Origin: Phlyctochytrium arcticum
Taxonomy: Eukaryota; Chytridiomycota; Chytridiomycetes; Chytridiales; Chytridiaceae
Reading direction: 5' to 3'
Length of the DNA stretch: 64,000 nt
Assembly (NCBI GenBank): GCA_025602905.1
Contig: JAHLKI010000047.1
Span: forward strand, 62,001 to 126,000
Positions 37,861-62,966 of this stretch are shown here, piece after piece. The number at the start of each line of letters is the position of its first letter. The first letter of the stretch is position 1. Made by a program: the position numbers and the translations under genes. The notes under the pieces are model-generated. The model was not told the origin of the DNA and made no database searches. It saw only the letters and a list, made by a program, of their open reading frames with translations.

Positions 37861-38121
37861 GTTCGCTCTCGAATAGCCCTGACGAGTGTGCAGAGCGGTC
37901 CAAGATCCAGCCTGATCCTTTGCTGCCAACTGAGGGTGATTTCACTGGAGAACTTTTGCATTTTTGCCAGCGGCTCGACTCCGAAATAGGCTCCGGAATT
38001 CTTCCGTGGCGCAACTACAAGGTTTCGATTCTTCGAAGCTAAAAACCAAAAATTAAAACCTGCGGGAAATTCGAAATTAATTTTGGCAGAGAAGCCTCAG
38101 AGCCTGGGAAAATCTATACTT

Positions 38122-38164
38122 GTGCCCAGGGATCTGGTGGCTACGCCACCAGATCCCTGGGCAC
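38122..38164. repeat. Perfect inverted repeat, 20-bp arms, 3-nt loop
   Basis: The left arm is 38122-38141 and the right arm is 38145-38164. The arms are perfect reverse complements with loop TAC between them, starting GTGCCCAGGG. It lies about 260 bp upstream of the Kelch copy A start codon. Confidence 0.95.
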
Positions 38165-39885
38165 GATTACGGTGCAGAAATAAATTCGAAAAAAAATTTA
38201 GATATAAAATGTGGAAAAGCAAATATTGCGATAAATCTGTTATGAATTCGGTCAATGAGATGACCATTCGAGATCCTTATGCATTACGTAAACACATGTA
38301 TTAGTAACTCCGCTAGGGAGGATAGACCTGGTTGAGTGTTGAAGAACTTTACTCGATAACTGAATAGACAACGAGATCGAGAACCAAAGCATACGCACAC
38401 ATAAGTTGGCTGTCAAACAGTGATCTCCATAAACAACATTACAACAAAATCAAGGTTCAAACCACTGTTTTCCCGGAAAAATATGTAATTGCGTTGCAAT
38501 CATGTCCAAGCTTGTTTTTCCTCACAATCATCTCGCAGCATACCAAGCATTCAGTTACATTTGTTTCTTCTTTTGCTTCATTATCTTGGTGCTTTTCGTT
38601 CGTCTCGTTTGTCTTCTCAAATATATCAACTCTACCCATCAGTGAAAGACTCAAATCCCAATTATTATCGCAGAATGAACAGATGCAGCATTAATTTATG
38701 GAAGCTGTTGATGAGGCACTTCTGACCATCATAAACCAAGAGTTTAAGAAGTATGTTCCAGGGAATATATGTGCCTGTTGGTAAACTTTAGTAGGTGCAG
38801 TGGGCCATCGTTTGCGCGATCATCCTTAAAAATACCAGGTAAATGAGACACATTTAATAATGACCTTGGTTATAGTATATGACAATGCATTTTCTGTATA
38901 CACAATACATGTAATATTTGCACCGAGACTGTTTCTCCCACGGTTTCTTTTCCGGGGAGAGCTAAAAACCTTCCACTGGCAGGCCACACTAACTCGAGAA
39001 TGATCAAATAAAGGCACACCAATGCCAGAATCGTTCTAGGAATCCGTTTGTGGTCACGTCAGGGCGTAACTGCATGTCTCTGGCTGCCTATATCGTCACT
39101 ATACCTGCGTGGAACATTGTGCTTTTCGGTCGTGTCCTTGGCTCTATGAGGTACCCCACTGCGGGTCTGCGTGTTCCGGTTGAATAGATTCGGGGATAGA
39201 TGACTTTGTCTGGCGCGATGAGTCTCGATGAGCGCTTGTCTGGCCCATCAAATTCCCATAGTGAGCAGAAATTGGAAAGTATCGGAGGAACCCAGTGTAT
39301 AGGTGTCTGGCAAGGCTCACCCGCATTTTTTTAGTATTGGAAGTGCCATTTTTTACAACTTGGTGTTTCCGATTGTAGCTCGCCAAGGACCAGATGATCT
39401 ATCGCAGCTGACGTTAATGATCGTTTAGAGAGGTGTTCTTTCGCATTGTATGCAACGTGTCGGGAAATTATTCAACCAACCTATCAAAGCTCCCGCAAGT
39501 TACTTACTTCCCGAACCTCAGCACGTCCGAGTCGAAACTTGACGCAGAAGAACTATAAAAGAGGGGTCAGATAAATGGGGTGAGCCCTCAGGTCGTTTCT
39601 CATCAGACCGACGGGCTAAGTGTATAATCATGGGGGATTTAATATTGTCCATGGGGGAAAGCGTGGGATGTTGAGGAACTCCGATGTGAACAGGGTCCTG
39701 GTTAATGAGAAAGTCGGACATTGAAAAAAGAACATAGATGCTTTCGGATGGGATTATGGCCAGTTCCCTACGTAACTCTGTAACAAAATGAATTACCCCA
39801 ATTGGTATTGCGCAGCAGTGCACAGTATGTACGATGAACGATGTGTGTTTTTGGGGTGTCACCCAAGCGGTGATCTGAGCGGTGA

Positions 39886-40372
39886 TATACAAAGTTCCCG
39901 ACAGCCGCGCTAAAAAAGTCGGCGCCAGCAACGAAGATATCCCGGAAGATATCCTGACCGTCTGTGATGTCTCCGACAAGGCAAACGTTGCTATACTATT
40001 GCGGCGAGGGTGCTTCAAAAACTGACCTAACATAAAATGAAAACTCAAGCTAGCTATACTACTGAGGCTAAGAGTTAAGCCATAGACCTCGAAATTGACA
40101 ACTCCTGGTGGAACAAAGGGTCAAAGACCAGTGTAAGATCATCGCTCATTTCGAACGCTTTTCATTAGCATAACACATGCTGGTAGATAGAAGATAGAAG
40201 TTTTCTTTGCAGAAAGGTGAGTATGGGGTCAACCTACCCTTGAATTGACCCAGTGGGTTGACAAGGGAGGCTCACCCTGAGGATTAGGTAGATGTCAAAG
40301 TCATGCCAATGATCCTTCCTACACTCACCAAGGAGGGTTCATCGAAGACTGAGGCCATTTCCTGAGCGCTGA
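39886..40372 (+). pseudogene. Decayed LVIVD gene fragment 1
   Basis: Two short stretches (39886-40004 and 40314-40372) match the LVIVD copy 2 coding sequence. The first corresponds to 33565-33680 (GATGTCTCCGACAAGGC is shared). The second corresponds to the AYTHQGWFTEDHAYFLSDDE region (CTACACTCACCAAGGA is shared). Insertions, frameshifts and missing 5' and 3' parts make it non-functional. It sits directly beside Kelch copy B, as intact copy 2 sits beside Kelch copy A. Confidence 0.8.
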
Positions 40373-40873
40373 CAATCTCACAGGTTGTGTTGCAATACCT
40401 TGTATACCTAAAGTAGAATACCCTCAGTTATTGTTTTGATTCTCAGTTGACTTAACCGGGACATCTCGACGCGGTTGACGCGGTTGATGCGTCTGCGTCG
40501 GGAAGTAGGTACTTAAACATAACAAATGGAAGCGTGCTGCCACAGTGCTACCATTGTCAAAGCAACTCATCAGCTCGGTCTGAAAGTCTTTCTCGAACAA
40601 CAATCCACCAAAATGGTACACAGAGCGTACCAATGATGGCTAACGTCGACTTTGTCAAGGCCGTTGGAGTACTCGAGTATGCTAGATGAATTTATGCAGC
40701 GCTAAATTCAGCTATTATCATCCAAAGTACATATGAAAAATCGACTGATGACCTAAGAAAAACTCAGAAAAAATCCCAAGAAAAAAAGAGTAAGTAATGA
40801 ACCGCAAAAAAGGGAAAGGATTAGCCTTCAAAAAACAAATAATCTGGAGTGTCGACGAAAGAACAGTACGATA

Positions 40874-43165
40874 CTAAGCGCTCCGGAGACAACTGTATGG
40901 GAAAAATCCAGAGACGTTGGTGGTAGAGTTCCAGCCTTGTGCCCACCCATCAGCGTACTTTCCCCTATGATAATGTGAGCTTCAATTCGTGGATGGGGTT
41001 GGAAAGGTTTAAAGAAAGGACTTACTTGACATATACAATATCGCCTGGAGAAATCATGATTTCGTCGCCTGAGACGGGTTCTTGGCAGCCACCCGGTCGA
41101 AACAGGACGTGTCCCACATATGGCATACCCGCAAGAACGGACTTGTCGTCGGACGCGACGGCAGCCTTGGGTTCGTTCTCCTTTGCGGAATCAGTTTTGC
41201 GCAGACCCATTTTCTCATTCAGTGGTAACGGAATTACGCGGGCTGAACTCGCAAGACTAGAGTCCACAGATTGTGCCCCAGTAGGCGAGGAGAATGACGA
41301 GCCGGCTGATATGAGCGCAGAAGCGGCATGTGCGACACTAGATGAGCTGGACGCAGATGCAAGAGCGTCATAGGAGGGAGGGAGGTCGGTCAGGTTGGCA
41401 TGTTCAAAGCGGTTGACCACAACGCTCTGCTCCGTTCGGGTAGGGGGAACGGTCATGACTTCGATTGACAGAGGAGACCCAGAGACCTTTTGCGAGTGAT
41501 GGCCCTGATGAGCGGCGTGTGCTGCACCTATAGCGCCAGCGGCCACAGCAGATCCAGAGGTAACATGCGAAAGAACAGAAATTTCATTATGTAGATTACC
41601 AAAATCGGTGCCGCTCACTTCGGGTCGTTGGGCCAGACCGAGTGTGGTCGAGCTCTGGGGACGACCTTGCTGCCCACTCTCAAGTGTGGTAGACATTGTT
41701 GGCTTGTTGTTTGATTGAGTGACAAGAGTCTGGCCATCATTTTGCTTGTCTTCAGCACGTCGTCGGTTTCGGCCCCGTCGAAGGAAAAACAGGAGAATAC
41801 CGACCGCGAACAGGACCACCGCAGCCACGATTCCACCAATGATACCCCCTGACAGGCCCCCGCTCTTCGCGAGAACGGGCGGATCTGGAGGCTCTGTAGG
41901 ATCTGTAGTGATGTTCTGTAACTGAGCGGCACTAGTTGCCCATTTCCCAGTCTTGGTATTGAAAAAGTACAAGCCGGCATCTGACGCAGGGGAACCCCCG
42001 TTGTTGGATCCTCCGTTGATAATCAAGTGCACTCCAACTCCGATAATCTTTGCACCATATCGGTTTGTTGGCTGGCCGTCATCCGGATTAGGCTTGCTGT
42101 CGTACTCTTCCGTCCACGTACTTGTCTTTGGATCGAATGACCAGATATCGTTGCGACTATCCAAGGTGTTACCACCGCCAAACATCCACACTTTACCGCG
42201 CAGGAATGTGCAGGCGGGGCCAACGCGCGCAGAAGGAATAGCGTTCTTCTCCGACACAGCCGCCCAGCCGGATCCTACGTTGTAAATCCACGAATCTGCC
42301 AGATTGGGAGTACTATCTGTCTGAGTACCACCGCCAAAAAGGAAGATTGAAGTACTGTCCAGCGATACCATACAAACTCTGGCGCGTGGGGATGGTGACG
42401 TCTGGGTTCCAGAGGCCGCAAGTAATTTTGCCCTCGAGGGGGGGCTGTTCAGGTCCACAGCATATAATTCTCCCGATGCTACCGCTTTGACTGCACTCCC
42501 AACAAGTGTCTCGACGAACCCTCCGAACAGGTAGTACGTGCTGCCAAGGATAACAGCGGCATGATCAAAACGGGCGGGAATAGAGATATTTCCACCGATT
42601 ATTATTCCTGCATTTACAACTCCAGTCCCTGCAAACGTTTGGAATTCGCCAAGCGAAAACGAGGAGACCCCAAGAGTATCGTTCGGCACAATAGCTTGTC
42701 CTCGCCTTAAGCCTCCAGTGCAGACAACCTTTTCTGCGTCCCAACGTGCGCATGCAGCAACAAATGCATTCAGCGACAATCCCGAAACGATTGTGGTGTC
42801 CTTGGAAGTCCAATCGTCATAGGAAACAAAGCTGGCGGTCTGGAGGTAATTCCTGTCACTCTCAATATTTGCAGGGTAGACTTGGAAATGGAAATGATGT
42901 TAGAAATTGGGTTGCAGATCGAAAGGAATGTTTGGGGCGTACTAGGTTTTAGGGGGTTGGGGTCTTTAGAGCCACCAATCACTACCATCTTGTTGTTTAG
43001 CGCAAACATCTCATGACCATAGCGAGCAAAACGCATCTGAACATCGAGTGCTTGAACGGAAACTGGACCCAAAGCGCTCATTGCCAGTAGCAGGGCGCTG
43101 GCGACAGAGGTGAGATGCCATCCCTCAGATCGTTTCGACGATCGGTATGAATGTGCCCGGCACAT
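40874..43165 (-). CDS. Kelch-TM-SH3 receptor-like protein, copy B
   Basis: Exons 43165-42943, 42880-41026 and 40964-40874 give 722 residues; phases agree throughout. The N-terminal signal sequence ends near SVQA. The extracellular Kelch blades include HEMFALNNKMVVIGGSK, VILGSTYYLFGG, STSIFLFGGG and VWMFGGGN. One TM helix follows (GGIIGGIVAAVVLFAVGILL), with RRGRNRRRAEDK. A cytoplasmic Ser/Thr/Gln-rich linker of about 220 residues includes EQSVVVNRFEHANLTDLPPSYDAL. The C-terminal SH3 domain (SGDEIMISPGDIVYVK joined across the last intron to YADGWAQGWNSTTNVSGFF) ends PYSCLRSA. The PPSY motif may bind WW or ESCRT/arrestin-type partners. The likely role is a surface sensor or adhesion receptor signalling through SH3 ligands; this is inferred from architecture only. 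Confidence 0.88.
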
Positions 43166-45516
43166 GCTTACTATCGAGTAGCTGACGAGTGTGTGGAGCG
43201 GCCCAAGATCCAGCCTGTTCTTTGCTGTCAAATGGGTGTGATTGTCACTGATTTTTAGCGATTCTTCGCGAAACGATCTTCTCAGCGGCTCGCTCCGAAA
43301 GGCTCCGGAATTCTTTTGTGGCTGGTTGGCGAAGTTTCGAAGCTAAAAAGTTGCAAAAGTTGCTACAACATGGCAGAAATGAAGATTCTTGAGACTTGAG
43401 CTGGTATTTGCTGTCTCGCGAAAGATAGTTCTATATAGTAAGATGTGGAAAATCAGGTATGGTAAATCAGATTCGAAGCACTTTTTCCTGAGAGAGATGG
43501 TATGGCAATTACGTTCAAAGTCCGCCTTGCAACCACCTCGCACGATATATTTCGCATCTAGTTATCTTTTTTCTTCCTTTGCTTCCTTGCTCCGGTTTGC
43601 TCCTTCATCTCGTTTGTCTTTTCACATGTACTAATTTTGAGCAACCTCAAACGTCTAAAAGCGCGAGATCCATGATATTCGACCAATTTGTTCTTTATTG
43701 TACTCTGAACGGGCTCAAGCAAAAATTGTTTTTGTTCTCAACGCAGGAAATAGGATCAACTTTGGAAGAGTGGGCGCTGTTGGTTCTGTTGAATCCTATT
43801 GAAATTCAATTTTACAATCAAGAGGTATAGTATTAGCTAATGGAAACCCTCAATGAGGCACTTCTGACCATCATGAACCAGATGGATACGGTGGATGTTC
43901 TGGGTAATGTATTACAGATATGTGTGCTCAATACCACCCGTATTACTGCGGCTGCTGGCACAGGTTTGGCCGGGATCGGGATTCGGGAAGTCAGTTGAAC
44001 TGATTCTATCAATTGGCCGGGGGGACGCAACGGACCCCTGTCTTGAGCTGTGTCAAGCTTTCGCTCATTGCCTGTGGCGAACCTGGGTGTAAGAGGTGAG
44101 CTATCGTTCACGCGATCATCCATAAAGGCCCAGATCAATAGCATAAAACGGTATTGCGCAGCGGTGCGCAGTAGGGAGAATGAACAATGTGTGTACCTGG
44201 CGTGTGATACAAAGCGGTTATCCGGAATTTTTTTTACCCCCGACAGCCGGTTACTTTCAGAAAGATCGCCAGCAAGGAGGATACGCCCACCGTCTGGGAT
44301 GTCTCCGTAAAGGCAAACGTCCCCTTGTGATCCCGCACAACATACAAGGGCGTCTCCTACACTCACCAAGGACCGAAGACCACGCCTAATTCCTGAGCAA
44401 TGACGAGCTCGATAAGTAGAAGGCTGTCGTGGAATTTAAGCAGACCAAGACGTATATCTGGGACATGAAGGACATGACCAAGCCGGCGTATTTTGGTGTG
44501 CACGTTGCTGCCGTCGAAGTGAACGACCACAACCTGTACAATAAGAGCAACTTTGTTTACCTTGCCTATTGCGGCTCTGGTCGACAATTTCTCGATCTTC
44601 ACAATATATCCACGGCTAAGCTAAAGGAGCACGCTTTCTCCCATGTCTCCCATAAGCGCAACGTTGCCCGGCGTTGCTGATAGTAAAGTCGTCATACAAT
44701 CCATTAGCCGAGGTTTTTTCATAGTATGATCTCCAACCGTTTAGAGTGCGGCGTGTTCTGAATGTAGTAGTTGACTTGTCGACAAGTGGGATGTCAGCTA
44801 GTCCGCCTGTGAGCAGAGAGGAACTTACCGGAAAGGAAGATCGCAGTGCAACCCAAAAGTAAGAGGCGTGCCGAGGATCGAAAGGGTAAGCAGGAGAAAA
44901 AAACCCTCAGCGCTGCAGAAAATGAATCCCTTCTAAAAGGCTGACCATGTCACACGCGTACTCGGTTAGCGGAGATCTAATGCCTGCAGTATATTGCATT
45001 CTTGTAATCTAGATTTCGCTTGGCATATTTCTTCCTGGGCCATCCGTTCCCATTACGGTACTAGCATATAATTATCAGCCTTTTGTTCTCCACATACTTT
45101 GCGTGTCTGGTTGTTTGTCAATGTTCACTGCAGTCTGCGCAGGAAGAGTGGTGGGGTGCTTGTTATAACCTGGGTTGACGATCTCTACCTACGTTTGCTG
45201 TCCCTGACGAATGACATCGAGTCCCAACGCACAGACGGTACCGTCTGATATAACATCACCGTCCATCTCAGCATCAAACTCCATGGTTGGTCACTCAGGT
45301 ACATATGTAAAAATCGGCTGATGATCTATAGATACCACAAAAAATACATCCCAAGAAAGTAACATACAAAAAAAAGTCCCACGCATTAAAAAGGGATAAC
45401 TAATGATCCAGATAATTCAAAAAAGGAGATAACCGATGATCCAGATGATTCAAAAAAGGGAGAGGACTAGCCCTAAAAACAAAAAAGGAGTGTCGACGCG
45501 TGAATATGGCACGACT
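43166..45516. other. Intergenic duplication zone between Kelch B and C
   Basis: About 2.35 kb with no intact gene. It contains duplication blocks shared with 38700-38830 and with 34720-34790, the ATTGCGCAGC element at 44153-44187, and the LVIVD relic at 44240-44744. Confidence 0.6.
44240..44744 (+). pseudogene. Decayed LVIVD gene fragment 2 (3' half)
   Basis: The sequence aligns with roughly the last 45% of LVIVD copy 2 up to its stop region. A residual open frame (44429-44680) still reads QTKTYIWDMKDMTKP, NLYNKSNFVYLAYCGSG and LDLHNISTAKLKEHAF. Internal stops, deletions and frameshifts disrupt it on both sides, and no 5' half or signal peptide remains. Confidence 0.9.
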
Positions 45517-47849
45517 CTAAGCGCTTCGGACACAGTTGTATGGGAAAAAGCCAGAGACGTTGGTGGTAGAGTTCCAGCCTTGTGCCCATCCGTCAGCGTA
45601 CATTTCCCTGTAAAAGAATTGTCAGTTTTGATTGATGATGAGATTGGGAAGACTGAAAGAAGATACTTACTTGACATAGACGACATCGCCTGGAGAAATC
45701 ATGATTTCGTCGCCCGAGACGGGTTCTTGGCGGCCGCCCGGTCGGAAAAGGACGTGTCCCACATGTGGCATGCCAGTATGGCCGGACTTTTCGTCAGACG
45801 CGACGGCGGCCTTGAGTTCGTTCTCCTTGGCGGAATCAGTGTTGTGCAGACCCATCTTCTCATTTAGTGGTCGCGGAACTACGCGAGCTGGACCGGTAAG
45901 ACCAGAGTCCACAGCTTGGGCCGCAGTAGGTGAGGAGGATGAGCCGGACGAAGATGGAAGCGCATCATAGGAGGGTGGAAGGTCGGTCAGGGTGTCATGT
46001 TCAAAGCGGTTGACCACGATACTTTGTTCCGTTCGGGTAGGGGGAACAGCCATGACTTCGTTCGACAGGGGAGAGCCAGATGCATGTTGGGATTGACGAG
46101 CGGCGTGTGCTGCACCGATAGCGCCAGCACCAGCGGCAACAGCAGATCCGGAGCTACCATGAGGGAGAACGGAAATTTCGTCGTGCATTTGTTGGTGGGA
46201 TGTGTTGGCCGCTGAGGGTACAGATGAAGCAACGCTGTACCGATAATCGCTGCCTGCAGGGGTGATGGAAGATAGATTACCAAAATCGGTGCCGCTCACT
46301 TCGGGTCGTTGGGCCAAACCAAGTGTGGCTGAACTTTCCGGACGAATTTGCTGTCCACTCTCGAGTGCAGACATTGATGTTGGCTTGTTGGTTGCCTGTG
46401 TAACAAGAGTCTGGCCACCATCTTGCTTACCCTCAGTACGTCCTTGGTTCCGGCGTCGTCGAAGGAAAAACAAGAGGATACCGACCGCAAACAGAACAAC
46501 TGCAGCGACGATCCCACCGATGATTCCCCCTGACAAGCCCGACTTTTTAGTACCCCCAATTCCGCTACCATCAGGACTGTCCGGAACTGCAGCGATGTTC
46601 TGTAACTGAGCCGCACTAGTAGCCCATTTTGCAGAGTTGGTATTGAAAAAGTACAAGCCGGCATCTGACGCGGCTGAACTGCCGTCCAAGGTTCCTCCGT
46701 TGATGATCAAGTGCACACCGACTCCAACCATCTTTGCGCTATACCGGTTTGTTGGCTGACCGTCATCCGGATTGGTCTTGCTTTCAAACTCTTTCTTCCA
46801 GGTGTTTGTGTTTGGGTCGAATGACCAAATATCGTTGCTGGTAGCCAGAGCGGTACCTCCACCAAACATCCATACTTTACCGCGTAGGAATGTGCAGGTG
46901 GGGCCAACGCGGGCAGAAGGGTCAGACTCCGTCTGCGGCACAGCCGTCCAGCCGGATCCCACCTTGTAAATCCATGAATCGCGAAGATACGACTCAGTGT
47001 TGCCGACATCGCTCGACCCGCCAAATACAAAGAAGGAACTGCTGTCCAGTGGTACCATACAAAAGTTGGCGCGGGCGGATGGTGACGCCTGGTTTCCGGA
47101 GGCCGTAAGTGACTTTGGTGTCAAAGGAAATGTGTTGAGATCCACAGCATAGAACTCTCCTGGTCCTGCTTTCATGCCAGACACGCGATTTGTTCCATTC
47201 ATTGACACGATGGTACCCCCAAACAGGTAGTACGTGCTTCCAAGGATAACAGCGGCATGATCCCAACGAGCGGGAATGGAGATATTTCCACTGTTTATTC
47301 CTGCATTTACGACCCCAATGCCGGCAAAGGCTTGAAAACCGCTGAGCGAAAATGCGGAAACCTCCAGATTGTCCGGAGCAACATGTCCTGGTCTCAATCC
47401 TCCCGTGCAAATAACCCCCTCTGTGTCCCAGCGTGCGCAGGCAGCGGCATACGTAGTCAGTGACTGCCCAGACACGATGGTGGTGTCTTTGGAAGCCCAA
47501 TCGTCGTAGGTAACGATGCTGGCCGTCTGAAGGTAATTTTTGTCTGCCGCAGCAGTTACATTGTCTAGTTATAATGAATGTGATGTTAGAAATTGGATCG
47601 CAGATCGAACTAATGGTTGGGCGTACCAAAAGCCGGGGGATTAGCGTATTTCGAGCCGCCCATCACAACCATCTTGTTGTTTAGCGCAAACATTTCATGG
47701 CTGAGGCGGGCAAGACCCATTTTAACATCGAGCGCTTCAACGGGAAATGGGCCCAGAGCGGTCATTGCCAAGAGCAGAGAGCTGACGACGGAGGTGAGAC
47801 GACACGGCTCAGATCGCCTCGAAGATCGGAATGAAGAAGTCCAGTACAT
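45517..47849 (-). CDS. Kelch-TM-SH3 receptor-like protein, copy C
   Basis: Exons 47849-47627, 47564-45671 and 45607-45517 give 735 residues. The signal sequence is SLLLAMTALGPFPVEA. The Kelch propeller includes HEMFALNNKMVVMGGSK, VILGSTYYLFGG, SSSFFVFGGS, RGKVWMFGGGTAL and GLYFFNTNS. TM helix SGGIIGGIVAAVVLFAVGIL is followed by RRRRNQGRTEGK. The cytoplasmic linker has NRFEHDTLTDLPPSYDALPS. The C-terminal SH3 is SGDEIMISPGDVVYVK joined to EMYADGWAQGWNSTT and GFFPYNCVRSA. The SH3 is split at the same codon position in all three copies (AA|G). This is the longest copy; compared with B it has an extra insertion in the linker. It is probably a plasma-membrane protein with the propeller outside; the ligand is unknown. 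Confidence 0.9.
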
Positions 47850-48431: not shown

Positions 48432-49331
48432 TTACAGGGTCAGGGCAGACACACCACCGAAAGCCGCGGCAAAGAAGATGGACCACAGCGATGTAAAAGG
48501 GGCAGAACCGGCAGCTGAGAATGGTGGCAGACCAGTCTCGGTTGGGGTAGAGCCGGCAGCGCCTCCCTTGGTGGATGAAGAGTTATCGGTGGGTTGCGCA
48601 GAAGAGGGGGTGGTGGGGGTAGCGGGGGGTGCTGCAGCTCCAGAGACTTGCAGCTCCAAAGCGCCGTTGGGGAGTGTGTTCTTGTAGATTGGGCGGTTTC
48701 CTTTGGCAGGGTATCCTGGAAGTGCCCAGAGGTGCTTGTCAAGGGGCTCACCCTTGGAGATGGTACCGTTGGTTTGAGAGACGATCTTGCAGTTGAAGCA
48801 GTTCATGTACATTTCAGCTCCAGCGGCTTGAGGAATCCAAGTCCATGCACAGACACAGTCGTCGCAGGCGGGGAGGTTGTTGGGAACATTGAAGGTGATG
48901 GTTTCAAACTTTTTGGTGGGGCAGGCTCCGTTGGCGGTAAAGATGGTAAAGTCCTTTTCATTGAATCCATCCTTCTTGTATGTGATGGAGAGAGCACAAC
49001 CACCACCGTCATGGACAGCAGATGGATCGGCAGCGCAAATGTTGGCGGCATCGCTGGGCTTGCCGGCAGCCTCTCCACAGACGACGGGCATCTTGGTCTG
49101 TCCACCAGCGTTGATGGTGGTTACACCTTCCGAGTTTTCACGCTTGCGACCAGAGCAGAGAAAGTTTTTGGATCCTTCCGTGAGAGGTTGTTCGAGAGAC
49201 GCTTCGTTCTTGCCCCAGACACCGGGAGTAACGATTCGCATGTGGGCAGAGACGGCGGGTGCGAGCGCCAGCGCTGCAAGAAGCAGGCCGAACCGTGACA
49301 GATTGGAGGTGGATGAAGTAGATGAAGACAT
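48432..49331 (-). CDS. LPMO-like, GPI-anchored protein with N-terminal histidine
   Basis: A single-exon protein of 299 residues. A signal peptide ends at PAVSA, so the mature chain would begin HMRIVTPG, the N-terminal His needed for a copper histidine brace. A second candidate His lies in AVHDGGGCALSITY. The block CVCAWTWIPQAAGAEMYMNC resembles the W-x-W...GxxEMYMNC signature of AA11/AA16-like lytic polysaccharide monooxygenases, which oxidatively cleave chitin or cellulose. Several paired cysteines suit a secreted fold. The C-terminus has a Ser/Thr/Pro-rich linker and a hydrophobic GPI signal (SLWSIFFAAAFGGVSALTL), placing it at the cell surface. A TATA-like TATAAATA lies about 65 bp upstream on the minus strand. 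Activity and exact AA family are uncertain. Confidence 0.8.
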   Translation of the reverse strand: MSSSTSSTSNLSRFGLLLAALALAPAVSAHMRIVTPGVWGKNEASLEQPLTEGSKNFLCSGRKRENSEGVTTINAGGQTKMPVVCGEAAGKPSDAANICAADPSAVHDGGGCALSITYKKDGFNEKDFTIFTANGACPTKKFETITFNVPNNLPACDDCVCAWTWIPQAAGAEMYMNCFNCKIVSQTNGTISKGEPLDKHLWALPGYPAKGNRPIYKNTLPNGALELQVSGAAAPPATPTTPSSAQPTDNSSSTKGGAAGSTPTETGLPPFSAAGSAPFTSLWSIFFAAAFGGVSALTL

Positions 49332-51793
49332 GATGGTTGTTGCGGTCGGCGAGACGATGGAGGTTGCAGAAGGGAGGAAGACGGTCGTCCCGAGTATTTA
49401 TACGTGAGCCGGGGGGGATCGGAGGGTAGCGCAAGATGGGAAGCAGAAAATGGAAGAAAAGTGTTCATCCCCGACCGAGCCGGCCGATTCAGGCTTACAT
49501 CTATTGCCGGCCTTGTCCTTGTGCGCTGCTGTTGTCGCCTTGTCCGCGACTTCGCGGCGGCGATGCAAGCGTTGGGCCGCCTGGCCCGGCTGGCCGCCCA
49601 AGGATTTTGACGCGTCTCGCGTTTTTGCACCGCGTTGTCGCCCAGCACACGTGACTTGAAGCCACGGAAGGGGCGGAAGGTCCGAAGGGAACAAAAGGAC
49701 CACGGAGCCGGCCGCCGGCAACGTCGGAAAACTCCGACGAAAAGTTTCTTGTCTGGAAAGAATTTTTTCTTTCGGTTCCCAACGCTGGCTTCTAATCAGT
49801 TTGAGGAAAAAGTCAACTTTTCCCGGTATGCACGGATATGTGGAAGTCTCTTGGCATTGGTATGTGAATACATGCCTTCTCCCACATACATCACAATGCT
49901 TCGGGGCCATGTCCCATTGTCCCCGGATCAAATGCCAATGATGAGGATTGCGCCAAATCTGCCAATGTCATGACTATGTACGGTGATGCCAAGGCGGTGA
50001 ATAGGGCAGCAGGGCCGTCGATAGGAAGCTGCCACTGCCTGCCAGCTATTGTAATGTGTGCCAAATGTCGAATGTGCTATGAAAGTAGGGCGCTAGGGGC
50101 GCTATGCTCAGATGCTCAGATCAACGGCGTAGCGTTCCGGTCCAAGCGAGTGGCTCATCTTCCTCCCCAGTCATCTGCTTTCATTCAGCCCAGATCTTTC
50201 GAGTATGAACGCCTTGACAATTCATATGCACAGCTGCCGTGGTCAACGAACGCGTATTTTTTCCATTGTTTTCATTCATATCTGATGGCAAACAATTCAT
50301 TTCTCCCAGTTATACTACGAAACACGACCGATCAAATATGCCATGCAAATCCTCGTTCAAGCGAATGTTCGAAATGCGAAACATCAGGCTGAATGCATTT
50401 CTTGTTCGAGAGAGAAGCATGACTCGTTATAGATACCTGAAAAGCGCAAAATGCGCGGATGTCAGGGCAGAAAGGAGCACTCTCCAAAATATCATAGCTG
50501 GATCCCGTTGGGAGTCTTTGATTTGTGATGCGACTATTGTGAAGGGCTATGAAGGGTGCTGAGGACTTCTGGATTTGGACAACCCAGCTGACTAAAAAAC
50601 TTTAATGGAGTTATCCTGGTCTCCACTCACAAGGTACCACGGCCCAATCCTGGTCCACATATTTGCTTCATAGCAAGAGGGCGCTTCTTTCTCGATTGTT
50701 GCCAACTATTAAACGTCTTCTTCCGATGGAATGCACCTGTCATTCCTTTGCAAGACCACTGTTTCGTATCGAGACTATAGCCTGGAATGACATGAAGCAC
50801 CACAGCTTATGTTTCTCAATTGAACGATATGTAGCTAATCACGCAGGTGAGCAGAGTGAGTTGCATTCCAACTCATACGGCTATCCCAGCAAAACCGAGG
50901 CAGTTACAGTACAGGCACTCAATGTTCAGTATACGAAAGCCAATCATGCCAGCTGGGGTCGGTGGCTACATCCCGTTGGGACGAGCATTGACTGACTACC
51001 GAGGCGAGTAAGAGAAGAAGCGAGAGCCACGCAGGAACGAAGGCATCCTTGGCATGTTTGTACTTGTGCTTGCTTGCCGGGAAATTGTATCGACGACAAG
51101 AGCGTCATTTTGGGGCAGTATTTTCCCATACGTTCTTGGCCGCTCAACGATGATCAATGACATTGGTGAATCTGGAATTAATAGCATGGGAGCAGTGCGT
51201 TTTGTTGGGGAGAAATCCCGGGCCTTTATAGGTCGAGGGGCTTGGCGCAACACCCCGCAAGAGCTACTGGGGAGAAACATACTCCAACTACTTGTTGCTT
51301 AATACATTTCGTTTGGCCGCAGGAAAGAATGAACGCAAAGTCAATGAGCAATTGATACTCTCTGCATGAATTTGATTTAGATGATTCTCCCACGAGATTT
51401 CAGGCCGTACCTTACAGGACTGTGTACAGCGTAGGATTGGAGTAGTCTACGGCCATTTTCCACTGCATCTGAGGAGAGACTTCTGGGATCTGGTGCAATT
51501 TCTTCGTATGTGAGCGAGGAATCGGATCTTCACTTCTTCGGGTATTCTCGGGACCTGCAAATTATGCACCGTTACATTCCGATACGCGTCGCGCGGGAAT
51601 TTCCCAGTTCCAGATTTTGGCAAGCACATAAAGGATGAATTGGCCAGTGGAAAATGTTACAAACAGGCTGAAATAGCGACTATGCATATCACATATATTA
51701 CAGACGGGACTTAAATTACAAGTATAGTACAATCATTATCTACACAAGGACTACAAGGCTTGGTTTTGAGAATGGCACGCGGGGCTCATGAGC
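49332..51793. other. Long intergenic region, no supported gene
   Basis: About 2.5 kb. A GC-rich part (49500-49740) with overlapping open frames on both strands is probably promoter or leader of the LPMO-like gene. The remainder has only short frames without motifs. No tRNA or transposon protein was recognised. Confidence 0.5.
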
Positions 51794-52297
51794 TTAGACG
51801 ACAGGCAAGGGCAGGCGGGGTTCACGAGATTCGACGACTGGCCAGGGCAGGCGGGGTTCACGAGCTTCGACGACTCGCCAGGGCAGGCGGGGTTCACGCG
51901 CTTCGACGACTGGCCAGGGCAGGCGGGGTTCACGAGCTTCGACGACAGGCAGGGGCAGGCGGGGTTCTCCAGCTTCGACGACTGGCAATGGGAGGCGGGG
52001 CTCACGAGCTTCGACGACTGGGAAGGGCAGGCGGGGCTCACGAGATTCGACGACTGGAAAGGGCAGGCGAGGTTCACGCGCTTCGACGACCGGTAATGGG
52101 GGACGGGGCTCTCGAGCTTCAACAACCGGCAAGGGCAGGCGGGGTTCACGAGCTTGTATGACTGGCCAGGGCAGGCGGGGCTCACGAGCTTCGACGATCG
52201 GCAAGGGGAGGCGGGGCTCACGAGCTTCCAGAATAGGAATGGCCGATGCAGATGAAATGGCCAATACGGCAATCAGGAGGGTACCGGTGATCTTCAT
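51794..52297 (-). CDS. Secreted 12-residue-repeat protein P1
   Basis: Single exon, 167 residues. The signal peptide MKITGTLLIAVLAISSASA and IPIL are followed by exactly twelve 12-residue repeats with consensus EAREPRLPxPVV, x = L, W or F. Single changes occur, such as EAGEPR, EPRPPL, LPWRVV and ESREPR. The DNA unit is 36 bp. No Kex2 dibasic site is present; each repeat carries two single arginines and a Glu-Ala dipeptide. The stop TAA takes the place of the next repeat's GAA codon. The start is fixed by the signal peptide shared with three paralogs. It may be a tandem peptide precursor (EA being a Ste13-type spacer, as in alpha-factor) or a proline-rich wall protein. Neither is proven. Confidence 0.85.
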   Translation of the reverse strand: MKITGTLLIAVLAISSASAIPILEAREPRLPLPIVEAREPRLPWPVIQAREPRLPLPVVEAREPRPPLPVVEAREPRLPFPVVESREPRLPFPVVEAREPRLPLPVVEAGEPRLPLPVVEAREPRLPWPVVEAREPRLPWRVVEAREPRLPWPVVESREPRLPLPVV

Positions 52298-52850
52298 GAT
52301 GGCGATGGGTTTGATGAGAAGCAGAGTGAAGTTAGAGTGAACAGATGGAAGAAGATGTTGGTTGGGATGAGAAGAGGGAGGGGAGCTGCCTTTTATATCC
52401 ATCATTTGATCCTCCTGAAGTAACTTGTAAGCGGCCAAAATGCCAACGAGTATGCCATCAACGCCATCGCAAAGGGGTCATGTCAAATTGCCATACGGCC
52501 ATGGCTAAACTTGGGAAGGAAGCCGCACGCTTGAGGTAGTTAGACTCAACTTTATTGCAAACTAGCTCTGGGTTATTTTTAATTGTGTAGAGTGCACCGC
52601 CTCGGCATCAAAGCAGAATGGGGAGCAGAAGGGAGCTATCGAGGCGGAAAAGAACAAATGCGGTGAACCGCAAGCTCAATGGTACGGAGCCATGCGGCCA
52701 TCCTTTTGTGAATGGCAACTGATTTTCTCTTCTATTCCCCGATTATCCAGGGCCAACCACCAACCAATCTTATAGGAACGACACATTGGTCGTTTGGGAT
52801 GCTGAGTATTAGATGCAGACGAGTGGTTAGTGAATGTGTAAATAGTCAGC
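52298..52850 (-). promoter_or_regulatory. Promoter module of P1 with TATA box
   Basis: The minus strand reads GGATATAAAA (52391-52400), about 94 bp before the ATG, followed by a pyrimidine-rich leader. The module up to about 52850 is an inverted copy of the P3 upstream region (about 55900-56407), sharing the stretches around CTCAAGCGTGCGGCTT and ACATGGCCGTATGGC-type words. Confidence 0.75.
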
Positions 52851-53961
52851 GTGTCGTCTGTGAGCTCAGATATTCTCTGCCCCCTTCTTTGGTTGGATGG
52901 AAATTGTCAAAACGTGCGGTCTGTCCTGATATCAGGACGCTCGTATCGTGTACCCAACTCAGAACGTACTTCAGTCCGTTTTGGGGTGAAGCACATTCTA
53001 AACAGGAAGTTGTGGTGCTCGATTAGGATTAAGTTGTTAAAAATGGATGGGGGTTCATTGAAATTGTAAAAATCGTTAAAATTAAAATGACCTGTTGCAC
53101 AGAACTGACTGACTGACTTTACAGGTGGGAGTATATTCACAGATATACATACACATATGCTTGGAGTTGGGAAATGCGACGCATAGCTTGGAATTGAGGT
53201 GAGAGTTTACGAGCTTCGACGACTATAAAGATGGTGCTGGTAAATCTACATGATATGATGGTTCGTGTGGGATGAGGCGATAGATCTGAGATTTATACAG
53301 GAATCCGAACCGTAGTTCATACTGAAGAGACGAAACGAGCTTTTTTGTATCCATATTGTCAGGAGTACAAAATAGCCCGAGATGTATTCACCATCAAATT
53401 CCATTGATAGAGAAAAAATGAACGGTAGAAGCACCAGATTCAAGTGTATTGCTGATTGGGCTCAGGGTTATCCATTCAACATATGTTGGAGTTGCTGAAC
53501 GGCGGGTGCATACGGTCACATACCGCTACCAGAGAAATGTTTAATATCGACCCACAAACGCCGCGACATAAAATAACCTCTGCCAATGTTCGACACACCC
53601 CGTAGTCATGTCAACTGAATGTCATTCATCCTCAGACCCGCTTTGCGTACTCGTCGTCTTACGCTGCCGAGGCTCCATGTGGTGACAAGTAGGAGTTTTT
53701 GCAACTTCCATGCATCAACCTGTGATTCAACTTGACGTATTTTGCCCCAGCAAACGAGATCGAACGCGTCGCGTCCTGCGAATTTCAAGATTGACCAGTG
53801 TGAGACTTTATAAAAGACAAAGATCTTTTTGCAAGTACATATATTTCAAAAGGAGACTATAGACATCACATAAATTACAGGTGACAGTTAAATTACAAGT
53901 ACTAGCACTACATAGACAACTACTATAGTACAACAGGCTTGGGTTTGGGAATGGGAGGAGC
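52851..53961. other. Intergenic, contains dispersed palindrome
   Basis: About 1.1 kb between P1's promoter and P2's 3' end. It holds the perfect palindrome GTCCTGATATCAGGAC at 52923-52938 and the flanking ACGCTCGTATCGTGTACCC block that recurs at 62570. No gene is supported. Confidence 0.55.
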
Positions 53962-54393
53962 TTAGACGACCGGCAAGGGCAGGCGGGGTTCTCGAGCTTC
54001 GACGACCGGCAAAGGGAGGCGGGATTCACGAGCTTCGACCACCGGCAATGGGAGGCGGGGCTCACGAGCTTCGACAACAGGCCAGGGCAGGCGGGGCTCA
54101 CGAGATTCGACAACAGGCCAGGGCAGGCGGGGCTCACGAGATTCGACAACTGGCCAGGGCAGGCGGGGCTCACGAGCTTCGACGACTGGCCAGGGGAGGC
54201 GGGGTTCACGAGCTTCGACGACTGGCCAGGGCAGGCGGGGTTCACGAGCTTCGACGACTGGCCAGGGGAGGCGGGGTTCACGAGCTTCGACGACCGGCAA
54301 GGGGAGGCGGGGCTCACGAGCTTCCAGAATAGGAATGGCTGATGCAGATGAGATGGCTAATACGGCAAACAGAAGGGTGCCGGTGATCTTCAT
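53962..54393 (-). CDS. Secreted 12-residue-repeat protein P2
   Basis: Single exon, 143 residues. The signal peptide MKITGTLLFAVLAISSASA and IPIL are followed by ten repeats of EAREPRLPxPVV. Repeats 2-7 all have Trp at the variable position; the first and last three have Leu. Minor variants are ESREPR and EARESR. The stop is again TAA in the position of the Glu codon. The leader is pyrimidine-rich. TATA (GGATATAAAA) lies on the minus strand at 54495-54504, about 100 bp upstream of the ATG. The function is unknown; it is a paralog of P1, P3 and P4. Confidence 0.85.
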   Translation of the reverse strand: MKITGTLLFAVLAISSASAIPILEAREPRLPLPVVEAREPRLPWPVVEAREPRLPWPVVEAREPRLPWPVVEAREPRLPWPVVESREPRLPWPVVESREPRLPWPVVEAREPRLPLPVVEARESRLPLPVVEAREPRLPLPVV

Positions 54394-56407
54394 GATGGCG
54401 ATAGGTGTGAGGAGAAGAAGAGAGATGCTACTGTGAACAGAAGGGGGGATGTTGGTTGGGATGAGAAAGGGGGAGATGGGACGGGGGAGGTGCCTTTTAT
54501 ATCCATTCCCTCTTTGATGCAATTCTCGAAACCAATCTCCAAGGCAGATCATTCTCACGATGCACCGCCATAGGGTCATGTCAAACCGTAGACGGCCAGT
54601 TCTAAATTTAGTAGCAGTGCAAGGGAAAGCCGCAAGCTTGAATGTGCACTAAAGCAGATAAACTTAGGCTTAAAACTGACTTTCCTGAGTGCACCGCCAG
54701 TTGTTTAGCACTGCACCGAGTGAGCCTTTGGTGGCGGAAGAGAAATATCGGAAGCGACCAGGCGCTTGGCCGCGGAAAGCCGAAAGACGTTCAATATGAA
54801 CAATGCGGCAACAGCCGCAACTTCATTGTACAGAGGCTGAGAGGCAATGTCTACGGCGAGCGGTGTGAAAAGGGTCTGGACTCGAGAGATGTGTTGCATA
54901 GGGCTTCGGTTCCACTAGTCGCGATGCATGCTTTCCGGAACCGTACCAAGAGTTTTATCGACATTTGCGTCTGCAATCATACCAGAAATTCCGAATGAAA
55001 CGGGACAATGATAACTTTTGCTTGAAAGTCCATCTGAGTTTCCCAAATGTTAGTGTTGCCGTTCGCATTGGCAAATGCATCCAGCTTCAATGCCTAAGAG
55101 AGACATGCGACAGGAAATGATACGATCTCATTCCCAAATTTTTCTATTAATTCGCTGTGACACTATACTAAGCCCATGTACGCCCTCCAAAATGGCAAAC
55201 GGCAGTTTCTAGAGTGACCTAGGAGGTCTTGATGGGCATGTGGAATGCAAGGTGAGAGTATCCGCTTGCGGTGCTTATTTCTCCCACGGCTGCGCATTTC
55301 GAACGCGTCGTGCAAACCATCAAAGCGTATTCCGCATCAAGACCAGAGGTAACAATCGCGGAGTAATAAGATACGTAGAAACAACATTCTACGTAGACGC
55401 TCTCTTCATTATCACCATTATCACAGGCAGATGTTATAGAATGGGACATTGGCCGCCCACGTCGTTTTGATGGGGTTGATCCAAGGCCAAAATCCCAAAA
55501 AAACGCGGTGTCTGGTCTGACCATAAATTCCAGAAATCTTCAAGAAAACATTGTACCCACTTTCTCGTCCGAATCTGGCTGATAAAACACTCTTTTGGGT
55601 CATTTGCCATCCCGAAACGGCCAAAAGTACATTCTGAGGAGGGACGGCAAAATCGTGCTTTGAGATTTGGGGGTTCCCTGACCCCCACCAAAATTGCCCC
55701 CTGCTCGTCCGAAATTGGCTCGCGAAACACTTATTTGGGTTATTTTGGCACCCCCAAACGGCCTAAAGTACGTCTTCGGGAGGGTATGGCGATTAAGGCG
55801 TCCCGGTATCGGGACAGGATTGCGTTTTGACAATCTTGGACAAAAGTTGGATCAACCAGAAAAGATTCGAGACGCTGAACATTTAGATAGACACGAACCA
55901 ATCGTCTGCATCTACCGCTCAGCATCCTAAACGACCCATCTGTCGTTCCTACGAAATTGTTTGATGGTTGGCCATGGATTATCGAGGAGTAGGAGGAAAA
56001 ATCAGTTCCCATTCACAAAAGGATGGCCGCATGGCTCCGAAGCATTGAGCTTACGGTTCACCGCATTTGTTCTTTTCCGCCCCGGTATGTTGTTGGTTCC
56101 GAGGCGGTGCACCTCCACGTTAAAAATAACCCAGAGCTAGTTTGCAATAAAGTTGAGTCTAACTACCTCAAGCGTGCGGCTTTCTTCCCAAGTTTAGACA
56201 TGGCCGTATGGCGATTTGACATGATCCCATTCCCATGGCGGCAGTGGAATACTCGTTGGCAATTTGACCGTTCAAGTTATTTTAGGAGATGATGGATATA
56301 AAAGGCAGCTCCCCCCAACCCATCTCCCTCTTCTCATCGCAACCAGCATCCCCACTCCTTTTGTACACACTAGCTTCTCTCTTCTTCTCATCACACCAAT
56401 CGCCATC
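54394..56407. other. Shared 5' region of P2 and P3 with duplicated repeat element
   Basis: About 2 kb between the divergent starts of P2 (-) and P3 (+). It contains TATA boxes at 54495-54504 (-) and 56294-56303 (+). It also has a two-copy tandem repeat with 140-bp period (55564 and 55704) and an imperfect palindrome GTCCCGGTATCGGGAC at 55800-55815. No gene is supported. Confidence 0.6.
56294..56303 (+). promoter_or_regulatory. TATA box of P3
   Basis: GGATATAAAA lies about 105 bp upstream of the P3 start. The same decamer lies at 94-104 bp upstream in P1, P2 and P4 (57775-57784), followed in each case by a CT-rich leader ending in CCCATCGCCATCATGAAG or a close variant. Confidence 0.8.
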
Positions 56408-56851
56408 ATGAAGATCACCGGTACCCTCCTGTTTGCCGTATTGGCCATCTCATCTGCATCGGCCATCCCTATTGGCTTTGTAGGCCTGGACGCTCGTGAA
56501 CCCCGCCTGCCCCTGCCGGTCGTCGAAGCTCGTGAACCCCGCCTGCCCTGGCCAGTAGTCGAAGCGCGTGAACCTCGCCTGCCCTTTCCAGTCGTCGAAG
56601 CTCGCGAGCCCCGCCTGCCCTTCCCAGTCATCGAAGCTCGTGAGCCCCGCCTGCCCTGGCCGGTCGTCGAAGCGCGTGAACCTCGCCTGCCCTTTCCAGT
56701 CGTCGAAGCGCGTGAGCCCCGCCTGCCCCTACCAGTAGTCGAAGCTCGAGAGCCCCGCCTGCCCTGGCCTGTCGTCGAAGCTCGTGAACCCCGCCTTCCA
56801 CTGCCTGTCCTCGAAGCTCGTGAACCCCGCCTTCCTTTGCCTGTCGTCTAA
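56408..56851 (+). CDS. Secreted 12-residue-repeat protein P3
   Basis: Single exon, 147 residues. The signal peptide is MKITGTLLFAVLAISSASA, then IPIGFVGLD, then ten repeats AREPRLPxPVVE. The variable residue order is L, W, F, F, W, F, L, W, L, L. The frame stops at TAA in place of GAA. The DNA after the stop still encodes one more degenerate repeat (AREPRLPFP) and a short NSGRVV tail, so the gene was once longer at the 3' end. Its promoter is an inverted copy of that of P1. The likely secreted product has no Cys, no Lys after the signal peptide, and is very rich in Pro, Arg, Glu and Val. Confidence 0.85.
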   Translation: MKITGTLLFAVLAISSASAIPIGFVGLDAREPRLPLPVVEAREPRLPWPVVEAREPRLPFPVVEAREPRLPFPVIEAREPRLPWPVVEAREPRLPFPVVEAREPRLPLPVVEAREPRLPWPVVEAREPRLPLPVLEAREPRLPLPVV

Positions 56852-57320
56852 GCTCGTGAGCCCCGCCTCCCCTTCCCCAACTCCGGACGAGTTGTATAAA
56901 CTGGCGAGCCTTTGATTGCCTTTGGTTGCTGTGTATATAATACTTAATCCTTGTAATTTACCTCCTGTATTCAATGTGATGTTTATTATCGCTGTACAAA
57001 AATACTTTCAACTTGTCATTCCCAATCGCAAACACTCGTTTGACGCGTTCAACCTTGAAATTCGCGGATGCACCGCGTACCGTATACTGACGCGATTATG
57101 AGCTTGAAAACATGATGCCAATTTACGGTCGACAACAAGACATACTCTTTCTTTTTTTACCCATTGGTCGAGTCGTGGTTGGCCTCTTTGGCAAGGAGTG
57201 AAAAGTTGTTGGTGGTTTCCGTGTGTTGATGCAGATTCCCACGCCCCGAATGGGACCAGTTATGGGGACGAGAAGTCCTGATATCAGGACAGAAAATGTA
57301 TTTTTTTCCCGGTAAATCGA
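56852..57320. other. Intergenic downstream of P3
   Basis: It contains the degenerate last repeat of P3, AT-rich 3' UTR sequence and, at 57275-57290, a perfect GTCCTGATATCAGGAC palindrome. No gene is supported. Confidence 0.55.
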
Positions 57321-57490
57321 GGAAAAGGCGGTGATTTGCAGATTAAGCAAGTTCGGTCAAGGGAGAATATAGCGGACATCTTTACCAAGAGCCTTCCCCC
57401 AACGATTCACCAAGAACTCAGCAACCTTCTCGGACTTCGTCGTCTTTCAAGTCTACTTAGGCAATAGGACGAGGGGGGAGTGTTGAGAAC
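57321..57490 (+). mobile_element. Ty1/copia retrotransposon 3' remnant (RNase H end, PPT, LTR start)
   Basis: The frame 57321-57467 reads GGDLQIKQVRSRENIADIFT and continues KSLPPTIHQELSNLLGLRR before a TAG stop. This matches the classic C-terminus of copia-type polyproteins (yvrs.eniADifTK...lGL). It is followed by a purine tract GAGGGGGGAG (57471-57480) and TGTTG, the usual polypurine tract and LTR start. Nothing upstream remains of protease, integrase or reverse transcriptase, so it is dead. Confidence 0.85.
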
Positions 57491-57880
57491 CAACGGATCA
57501 CGTGTACGAAGTGACGTGAAATGCCAACGAGCTTTGTAGCATTTGTTCTGTTCCGCCCGAGTTACCCTTGATTCCCGAGGCGGTGCACATCCAAGTTAAG
57601 AATAACCCAGAGTTGGTTTGCAATAAGAATGAATCTAACTACTTCACCGCTCCGGTGTTCTACCCCAATTTTAGACATGGCCGTAGGGCGATTTGACATG
57701 ACCCCTTTGCCAATGGCGGTGATGGCATACTCGTTGACATTTTGACCGTTCAAGTTATTATCAAATGCCGAAGTGGATATAAAACGCGAGCCGTCTCGCT
57801 CTTCTCATCCCAACCAATATCCCCCTCCTTCAGTTGACACCAAGTTTCTACCTCTTCTTCTCATCACACCCATCGATATC

Positions 57881-58102
57881 ATGAAGATCACCGGTACCCT
57901 CCTGTTTGCCGTATTGGCCATCTCATCCGCATCGGCCTTCTCTATTGGCTCCTTATACATGGAAGCTCGTGAGCCCCGCCTCCCATTGCCAGTTGTCGAA
58001 GCTCGCGAGCCCCGCCTGCCCTTGCCGGTCATCGAAGCTCGTGAGCCCAGCCTGCCCTTGCCGGTCGTCTACGCTCGCCTTCTCGTCAACCCTGTTGTAT
58101 AA
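57881..58102 (+). CDS. Secreted 12-residue-repeat protein P4 (short)
   Basis: Single exon, 73 residues. The signal peptide MKITGTLLFAVLAISSASA is followed by FSIGSLYM and only three repeats, all with Leu at the variable position (EAREPRLPLPVV, then a PVI variant, then EAREPSLPLPVV). A tail YARLLVNPVV follows. Here the Glu codon position that is TAA in the paralogs is TAC (Tyr), and the frame ends 10 residues later. This suggests the ancestral C-terminus was a short NPVV-like tail. TATA is at 57775-57784. The upstream module is homologous to that of P1 and P3 up to about 57540, where the copia LTR begins. Confidence 0.8.
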   Translation: MKITGTLLFAVLAISSASAFSIGSLYMEAREPRLPLPVVEAREPRLPLPVIEAREPSLPLPVVYARLLVNPVV

Positions 58103-62871: not shown

Positions 62872-62881
62872 GGGAGATTCC

Positions 62882-62966
62882 CACTATGCCCAACTATGAA
62901 TCCAACTATGCCCCAACTATGAATCCAACTATGCCCCAACTATGCGGCACTATGATTCCAACTATG
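62882..62966 (+). repeat. ACTATG short tandem repeat
   Basis: Eight occurrences of ACTATG, mostly as CCAACTATG, alternate with AAT or CCC spacers at roughly 11-12-bp period. The array begins 10 bp after the 62-bp palindrome, whose centre contains the same word. Confidence 0.9.

Follow-up and report, generated by a model that had tools for sequence, protein, structure and literature searches.

In a 64,000-nucleotide window of the genome of the chytrid Phlyctochytrium arcticum (bases 62001-126000 of the 134,617-bp contig C47, in an assembly of 31.5 Mb) we studied four genes, P1 to P4, each encoding a leader followed by tandem copies of a 12-residue unit with the consensus EAREPRLPLPVV. Together with relatives elsewhere in the genome they form a selected, real gene family rather than a product of chance, in which DNA changes are often synonymous and rarely alter an amino acid. 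The most likely explanation of the family, which we prefer with modest confidence, is that it consists of secreted multi-copy precursors that would be cut at single arginines.

The repeat genes and their conservation

An earlier account made from the letters alone (the sequence-only reading) had described P1 to P4 as a four-gene family with 12, 10, 10 and 3 units. We confirmed the four frames, with one stop in each, as well as the unit counts, which came out the same in a recount free of any requirement at position 3 of the unit, and Tandem Repeats Finder (TRF) independently detected all four 36-bp arrays. The genes and the features belonging to them are listed here, the coordinates of the arrays being derived from the frames.

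51794..52297, minus strand: P1, leader MKITGTLLIAVLAISSASA and 12 units, 167 aa plus stop
51797..52228, minus strand: P1 repeat array, 12 x 36 bp
52390..52397, minus strand: TATAAAAG (TATA box) of P1, starting 100 bp upstream of the ATG
53962..54393, minus strand: P2, leader and 10 units, 143 aa plus stop
53965..54324, minus strand: P2 repeat array, 10 x 36 bp
54494..54501, minus strand: TATAAAAG (TATA box) of P2, starting 108 bp upstream of the ATG
56080..56407, plus strand: P3 upstream region, 328 bp, matching only the four C47 genes in a genome search
56297..56304, plus strand: TATAAAAG (TATA box) of P3, starting 111 bp upstream of the ATG
56408..56851, plus strand: P3, leader and 10 units, 147 aa plus stop
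56489..56848, plus strand: P3 repeat array, 10 x 36 bp
57778..57785, plus strand: TATAAAAC (TATA box) of P4, starting 103 bp upstream of the ATG
57881..58102, plus strand: P4, leader, 3 units and a diverged tail (YARLLVNPVV), 73 aa plus stop
57962..58069, plus strand: P4 repeat array, 3 x 36 bp

The number of four genes proved too low, since a genome search (17 matches at an E cut-off of 10, a gene being hit in more than one piece in some cases) added two members on contig C39, P5 and P6, and a set of short-unit relatives. P5 (252 aa) has 18 units and one 9-residue unit in which EPR is missing, while P6 (168 aa) has 8 counted units, two 16-residue units that both contain Tyr, and EPRLPYPAPKP(V/I)V close to both ends. 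The short-unit relatives S1 (contig C1) and S2 (C48), of 108 aa, are built from ~10-residue units such as VPRLPIVEAR, and S3 (C27) is a further one without a leader. Contig C4 carries a remnant of the family, and weak further matches fell on C24 (E 0.11) and C7 (E 2.5).

P1 to P4 have the N-terminus MKITGTLL(F/I)AVLAISSASA in common, and their leaders had rightly been called near-identical, the first 63 coding bases being 87-95% identical at the DNA level. A crude hydropathy and AxA scan used as a signal-peptide test selected P1-P6 together with S1 and S2, and in an AlphaFold model of P3 the leader forms a helix at residues 3-17. Upstream of the ATG, TATAAAAG is also present in P5 (132 bp), P6 (85 bp), S1 (85 bp) and the leader-sharing gene K1 described below (217 bp). 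The claim of an almost identical promoter held for P1 and P3, which were 87% identical in a 400-bp upstream alignment, and partly for P4 (72% to either), but not for P2, which was 54-58% identical to the other three and closer to P5 (72%); the remaining family pairs gave 35-58%. Likewise, the 328-bp stretch upstream of P3 matched P1 at 83% and P4 at 78% over ~300 bp, and P2 over 113 bp only. Open reading frame finding also lists longer frames for P1 and P2, and because these begin before the TATA box, MKITG is the likelier start. P4 is contained within the NCBI protein DFS34DRAFT_654471 of P. arcticum, whose predicted N-terminus is longer.

The conservation of the unit was analysed on 61 units, recovered both with a filter requiring R or G at position 3 and without it. 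This count includes EAREPRLPYPAP of P6, the start of a 16-residue unit, which is outside the 60-unit selection tests; not counted as units were the second 16-residue unit of P6 and the tail of that protein, the P5 unit of 9 residues, the P4 tail, S1-S3 and the C4 remnant. P8 was present in 61 of 61 units and R3, E4, P5, R6 and L7 each in 60, with R3 and R6 occurring together in 59. In 59 units, among them the first one of each array, a tripeptide (x)AR or (x)SR stands before the core, and EP directly follows position 3 in 59. The spacers between cores read EAR, and also ESR, QAR, DAR and KAR. The array ends with a core and PVV-stop in P1, P2, P3, P5 and S1-S3, and in diverged tails in P4 and P6.

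Across the 60 units from P1-P6, which comprise 50 distinct DNA sequences, the ratio of nonsynonymous to synonymous change (pN/pS) was 0.142 in the sense frame and 0.099 when position 9 was left out, compared with 2.03 and 3.33 in the +1 and +2 frames and 1.61, 2.89 and 0.187 in the antisense frames. Changes from the consensus numbered 44 nonsynonymous and 166 synonymous, that is, 21% nonsynonymous against a neutral expectation of 68% on average and 57% at the minimum in 1000 simulations, the counts not being independent because the units are related by descent. Mean unit identity was 0.842-0.886 within genes and 0.841-0.875 between genes, and since the former is barely above the latter, recent homogenisation is not the main cause of the sameness. 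Strong purifying selection acts on this reading frame. We regard it as very improbable that the arrays are a functionless, satellite-like repeat which spreads in a transposon-rich region and is open by chance; a copia-like fragment between P3 and P4, a Helitron-like frame on C47, the location of S1-S3 in a dispersed duplication and the openness of one antisense frame (pN/pS 0.187) would fit such a repeat, but leader and TATA box belong to the sense frame, whose pN/pS is also the lowest among the six. The antisense frame was rejected as a gene, leader and TATA box lying on the sense strand, and its value comes close to that of the sense frame because third positions coincide.

Position 9 had been described as alternating among L, W and F. 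This was the case in P1 (LWLLFFLLWWWL), P2 (LWWWWWWLLL) and P3 (LWFFWFLWLL), but P4, P5 (18 units) and the seven 12-residue units of P6 have L throughout. Positive selection at this position was rejected, pN (0.30) being below pS (0.60) in the 35 C47 units, with a pN/pS of ~0.5.

A candidate precursor cut at single arginines

In the precursor that we propose, the order of parts would be leader-(x)AR-core-EAR-core...core-stop. The leader, judged as a sequence feature, would direct the protein into the secretory pathway, and after it would come a brief pro-piece with L(Q/E/D)AR or MEAR at its end, and then cores EPRLP[L/W/F]PVV spaced by EAR. An arginine-directed protease would cut after AR, and perhaps after PR, the candidates being a kexin that acts at single Arg or where R-x-P-R is present, and an aspartyl protease resembling the yapsins. 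The C-terminal Arg would presumably be trimmed by an S10 carboxypeptidase and the N-terminal EP possibly removed by a dipeptidase of the Ste13/dipeptidyl peptidase (DPP) type, EP and EA being dipeptides that would suit a Ste13-type enzyme. The output would be some tens of proline-rich peptides, each ~7-12 residues long, roughly neutral and nearly the same as one another; a computed [M+H]+ of 1375.81 applies to the candidate product EPRLPLPVVEAR and to its isomer LPLPVVEAREPR. Further candidates have computed values of 1219.71 (EPRLPLPVVEA), 1019.63 (EPRLPLPVV), 993.61 (RLPLPVVEA), 1448.80 (with W) and 1409.79 (with F). Selection would act on the peptide of each unit, while unit number and length would be free to vary. 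As to the role of the peptide, we lean towards an extracellular signal or an anti-competitor activity over a wall polymer.

Multi-core precursors had already been suggested by the sequence-only reading, and this suggestion would fit best, with the conserved AR, the composition, the missing fold and the processing genes in its favour and the lack of dibasic sites in P1-P6 and of a UstYa match against it. AR is retained across unit lengths of 9 (P5), 10 (S1 and S2), 12 and 16 (P6) residues, and because AR stays while unit length varies, a precursor, for which spacing is of no consequence, fits better than a regular structure. S1 has 6 AR and 4 PRL, and S2 has 5 AR and 4 PRL; some segments are without one or the other, with AR lacking in one segment of S1 and one of S2. 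Among the processing genes of the genome, two P-domain matches of the kexin type were over the cut-off, of which the frame on C1 also has the end of Peptidase_S8, while the scanned frame on C3 has the P domain only. A 784-aa frame of the DPP type contains DPPIV_N and Peptidase_S9, and a second match is in two pieces. For S10 the best match has internal stops and a frame on C38 has none, and aspartyl protease genes are present. Single-Arg cleavage of Kex2-processed repeat proteins (KEPs) by kexin is suggested, in a passage of PMC9769878, from peptides made in P. pastoris, and a title in the reference list of PMC2515848 names a monobasic-specific yeast yapsin.

A variant of the precursor, which we consider doubtful, would be cut after R6, where R-x-P-R resembles the R-x-x-R of furin- or kexin-like enzymes, giving LP[L/W/F]PVVEAREP(R) peptides with AREP inside the product. 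It would fit the joint presence of R3 and R6 noted above, the 11, 9, 10, 2, 18 and 10 occurrences of R-x-P-R in P1-P6, and the retention of both arginines although R3 can be followed by E, D, K, V, G or S, as in RKPR, RVPR, RELR and RGPR of S1, RDPR of P5 and RSPR of K1. However, most proteases cut poorly where proline stands at P2', as it does in R-L-P, and judged by eye P6 and S1 fall into more even pieces when divided at AR. AR is slightly favoured over PR, because the last P6 segment, the P4 tail and parts of S1 keep AR and have lost PR.

The main rival, which we think unlikely, is that the protein acts without being cut, as a disordered, proline-rich polymer of repeats that is secreted to serve as a component of the wall or matrix, a surface coat or a spacer; its PRLP[L/W/F]P segments would adopt an extended proline helix. 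Proteins of this kind usually show conserved repeats, a proline content like the 19-25% found here and no predicted fold; array length differs among the copies. The AlphaFold model of P3, with a mean predicted local distance difference test (pLDDT) score of 52, has nothing structured outside the leader helix; a structured solenoid was thus not supported, in what is a weak test given the shallow alignment of 8 sequences. On the other hand, unit length is not constant and there is nothing obvious for attachment, since the mature parts of P1-P6 contain no Cys, no N-glycosylation motif and 0-4 Ser/Thr/Asn, and by eye no hydrophobic anchor was seen at their six C-terminal ends. Nor did P1-P6 and S1 match any Pfam family at cut-off, the best E being 0.34, to the leader of P2. 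The composition counts against wall proteins of the usual kinds but does not count against all structural roles.

Several observations weigh against cleavage into peptides. Mature P1-P6 contain no dibasic site (KR, KK, RK, RR), hence no textbook kexin site, as the sequence-only reading had correctly reported for KR in P1-P4; S1 and S2 have one (RK) each. The processing enzymes are general fungal equipment and are unlinked to the P genes. Three other plausible leaders (49331, minus strand; 59832, plus strand; L015:8943, minus strand) have no AR in the stretch examined, these having been judged plausible by eye among the 29 rows of a crude scan; AR soon after a plausible leader was seen only in the leader-sharing group, in the window and the retrieved family loci. 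The common PVV-stop array end may be inherited, position 9 is a relaxed site for large hydrophobic residues and not a diversifying one, and conserved disordered repeats would also be expected in uncut structural or matrix proteins. Finally, the genome gave no match to UstYa (DUF3328), in a search made without a positive control. A linked modifying enzyme of this type, which the sequence-only reading had advised looking for outside the window, was absent from the 10 window frames scanned for domains, and neither UstYa nor a cytochrome P450 or methyltransferase was detected in these or in 10 frames of the family loci and their flanks. The scan used stop-to-stop frames, not gene models, and covers part of the frames of the window. 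The window frames gave kelch, lytic polysaccharide monooxygenase (LPMO) AA14, LVIVD, Rav1p_C and purine-synthesis domains, with nothing in two frames, while HMGL/LeuA and Helitron domains were found in two of the family-locus and flank frames and nothing in eight.

From these sequences a chytrid class of precursors with single-arginine spacers (AR or R-x-P-R) and EP/EA dipeptides, and devoid of dibasic sites, can be put forward tentatively. If it exists, it would supply an early-diverging lineage of fungi with a proline-rich signal or weapon, and no fewer than six paralogous genes would encode this product, each in up to ~19 copies.

Known precursor systems and the search for relatives

Among the closest known systems, KEPs share with the P family a leader, at least three tandem repeats of at least 8 residues, a short unit and several paralogues, in a genome that also encodes kexin-type, DPP and S10 enzymes. 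P1-P6 have 12, 10, 10, 3, 18 and 8 units, as the KEP repeat rule asks. KEPs, however, need dibasic sites between units, defined as KR/KK/RK/RR in an excerpt of PMC7329392 and as KR/RR/KK in the screen rule given in part of PMC6339444. Because they have no dibasic sites, P1-P6 are not classed as KEPs and would escape screens of this kind, though they may nonetheless work like KEPs. The authors of the KEP screen concede, in a passage of their report, that unusual sites are possible in fungi where nothing was found (PMC6339444).

Precursors of alpha-type pheromones (MF alpha, ppg1) also carry multiple copies of short peptides, with acidic X-A/X-P dipeptides beside the cut site according to a section of PMC6339444, where the core type PYGxPxG is given as well; an excerpt of PMC3068285 gives WCxxGxxCW. 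The P family has no core of either type: P1-P6 have neither KR nor Cys, and the unit consensus has no Gly. The genome gave no STE2 match, a weak negative since the prokaryote controls gave none either, and no STE3 match in a search without a positive control. Apidaecins are proline-rich and cationic, whereas seven candidate products of the P family are negative at pH 7 (computed charge -1.16 to -0.16). The insect apidaecin and ant hymenoptaecin precursors resemble the P family in their near-identical peptides and in spacers with Arg and EA/EP, and differ from it in using RR (or KR, RxxR) with EAEP, as described in part of PMC3415428. They come from another kingdom, and a sequence relation to the P family is not shown.

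Dikaritins (ustiloxin, phomopsin, asperipin) too are made from a multi-core secreted precursor, and a Tyr-bearing core is their rule, as is a UstYa gene, normally linked; P1-P6 differ in having no dibasic site and no Tyr in the 12-residue cores. PIR proteins, glycosylphosphatidylinositol (GPI) mannoproteins and Rep1 repellents are similar in being secreted and internally repeated. The PIR and GPI wall proteins are defined by a Ser/Thr-rich body, Cys or a C-terminal anchor, and P1-P6 contain no Cys, scarcely any Ser/Thr and no visible anchor. Rep1 itself is Kex2-cut, as stated in an excerpt of PMC7329392.

Our searches of protein databases, Pfam, prokaryotes, viruses and the literature are in line with the earlier view that this repeat belongs to no described family. 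A protein database (~5.8 billion) returned only P4's own record among the best 8000 candidates by shared words, and an additional search gave none at E up to 1 among its 21 candidates. The search of proteomes that had been advised thus found P4 and did not match P1-P3; the other members are probably unannotated there, because near-identical proteins should have matched. Pattern stretches in prokaryote genomes (188) and viral contigs (6) included none confirmed as a relative. In the literature searched the strings EAREPRLP and REPRLP were absent, matches to EAREPR were apparently ordinary words run together, and among the papers naming P. arcticum no title concerns these genes. So far the family has been found only in this genome, other chytrid genomes lying outside the scope of the search. 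We know of no described peptide signal in the chytrid lineage. If the units are released, multi-copy peptide precursors would come to include a form that lacks dibasic sites, chytrids would offer a concrete peptide for study, and surveys keyed to KR/RR/KK and to annotated proteins would undercount such genes.

Leader-sharing genes, duplications and neighbouring sequence

Two further genes on C39, K1 and K2, have a P-family-like leader followed by bodies rich in alanine and lysine, so that one leader is common to unlike bodies.

L010:3717-5003, plus strand: K1, secreted Ala/Lys-rich protein, 429 aa
L011:13-810, plus strand: K2, secreted Ala/Lys-rich protein, 266 aa

Both have (L/M)QAR soon after the leader, as LQAR or MQAR, and the body of K1 holds a single TARSPRLPIKVLLESR stretch. 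The segment from P6 to K1 is flanked by two 915-aa frames in opposite orientation (L009:5832-8576, minus strand, and L010:6289-9036, plus strand), which are identical over the part compared; the L009 frame has no Pfam match. S1-S3 are located in a dispersed duplication (L012 669-6517, L013 1-6431, L014 164-4630), whose C1 and C48 copies are 99.6-99.7% identical over 3217 and 2639 bp; the C27 copy is 99.0% identical over 4496 bp and the match stops inside the gene. Three L012 frames lying inside this duplication or at its border were scanned and contained no Pfam domain. Adjoining the C4 remnant, frames at L015 ~4179-5159 (minus strand) contain repeated CEHGK(x)KxxCK(x)CGG-like motifs.

A subtelomeric placement was not supported, neither TTAGGGTTAGGG nor CCCTAACCCTAA (a single telomere motif) occurring in the nine pieces checked. 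Between P3 and P4, at 57320-57500 on the plus strand, we recognised by eye the terminal part of a retrotransposon frame of the copia type (ENIADIFTKSLPPTIHQEL...), after which comes a run of purines, and on C47 beyond the window a long Helitron-like frame with Helitron_like_N and PIF1 (L018:467-6199, plus strand). Elsewhere in the window lie three related kelch-repeat frames (35977-47568, minus strand), two of which, at 41025 and 45670, have a membrane-spanning stretch by eye, and a protein that looks secreted and partially matches LPMO family AA14 (48435-49397, minus strand). A short tandem array at 62879-62966 is built from an 11-12 bp or 23 bp unit that is TCCAACTATGCCCC-like.

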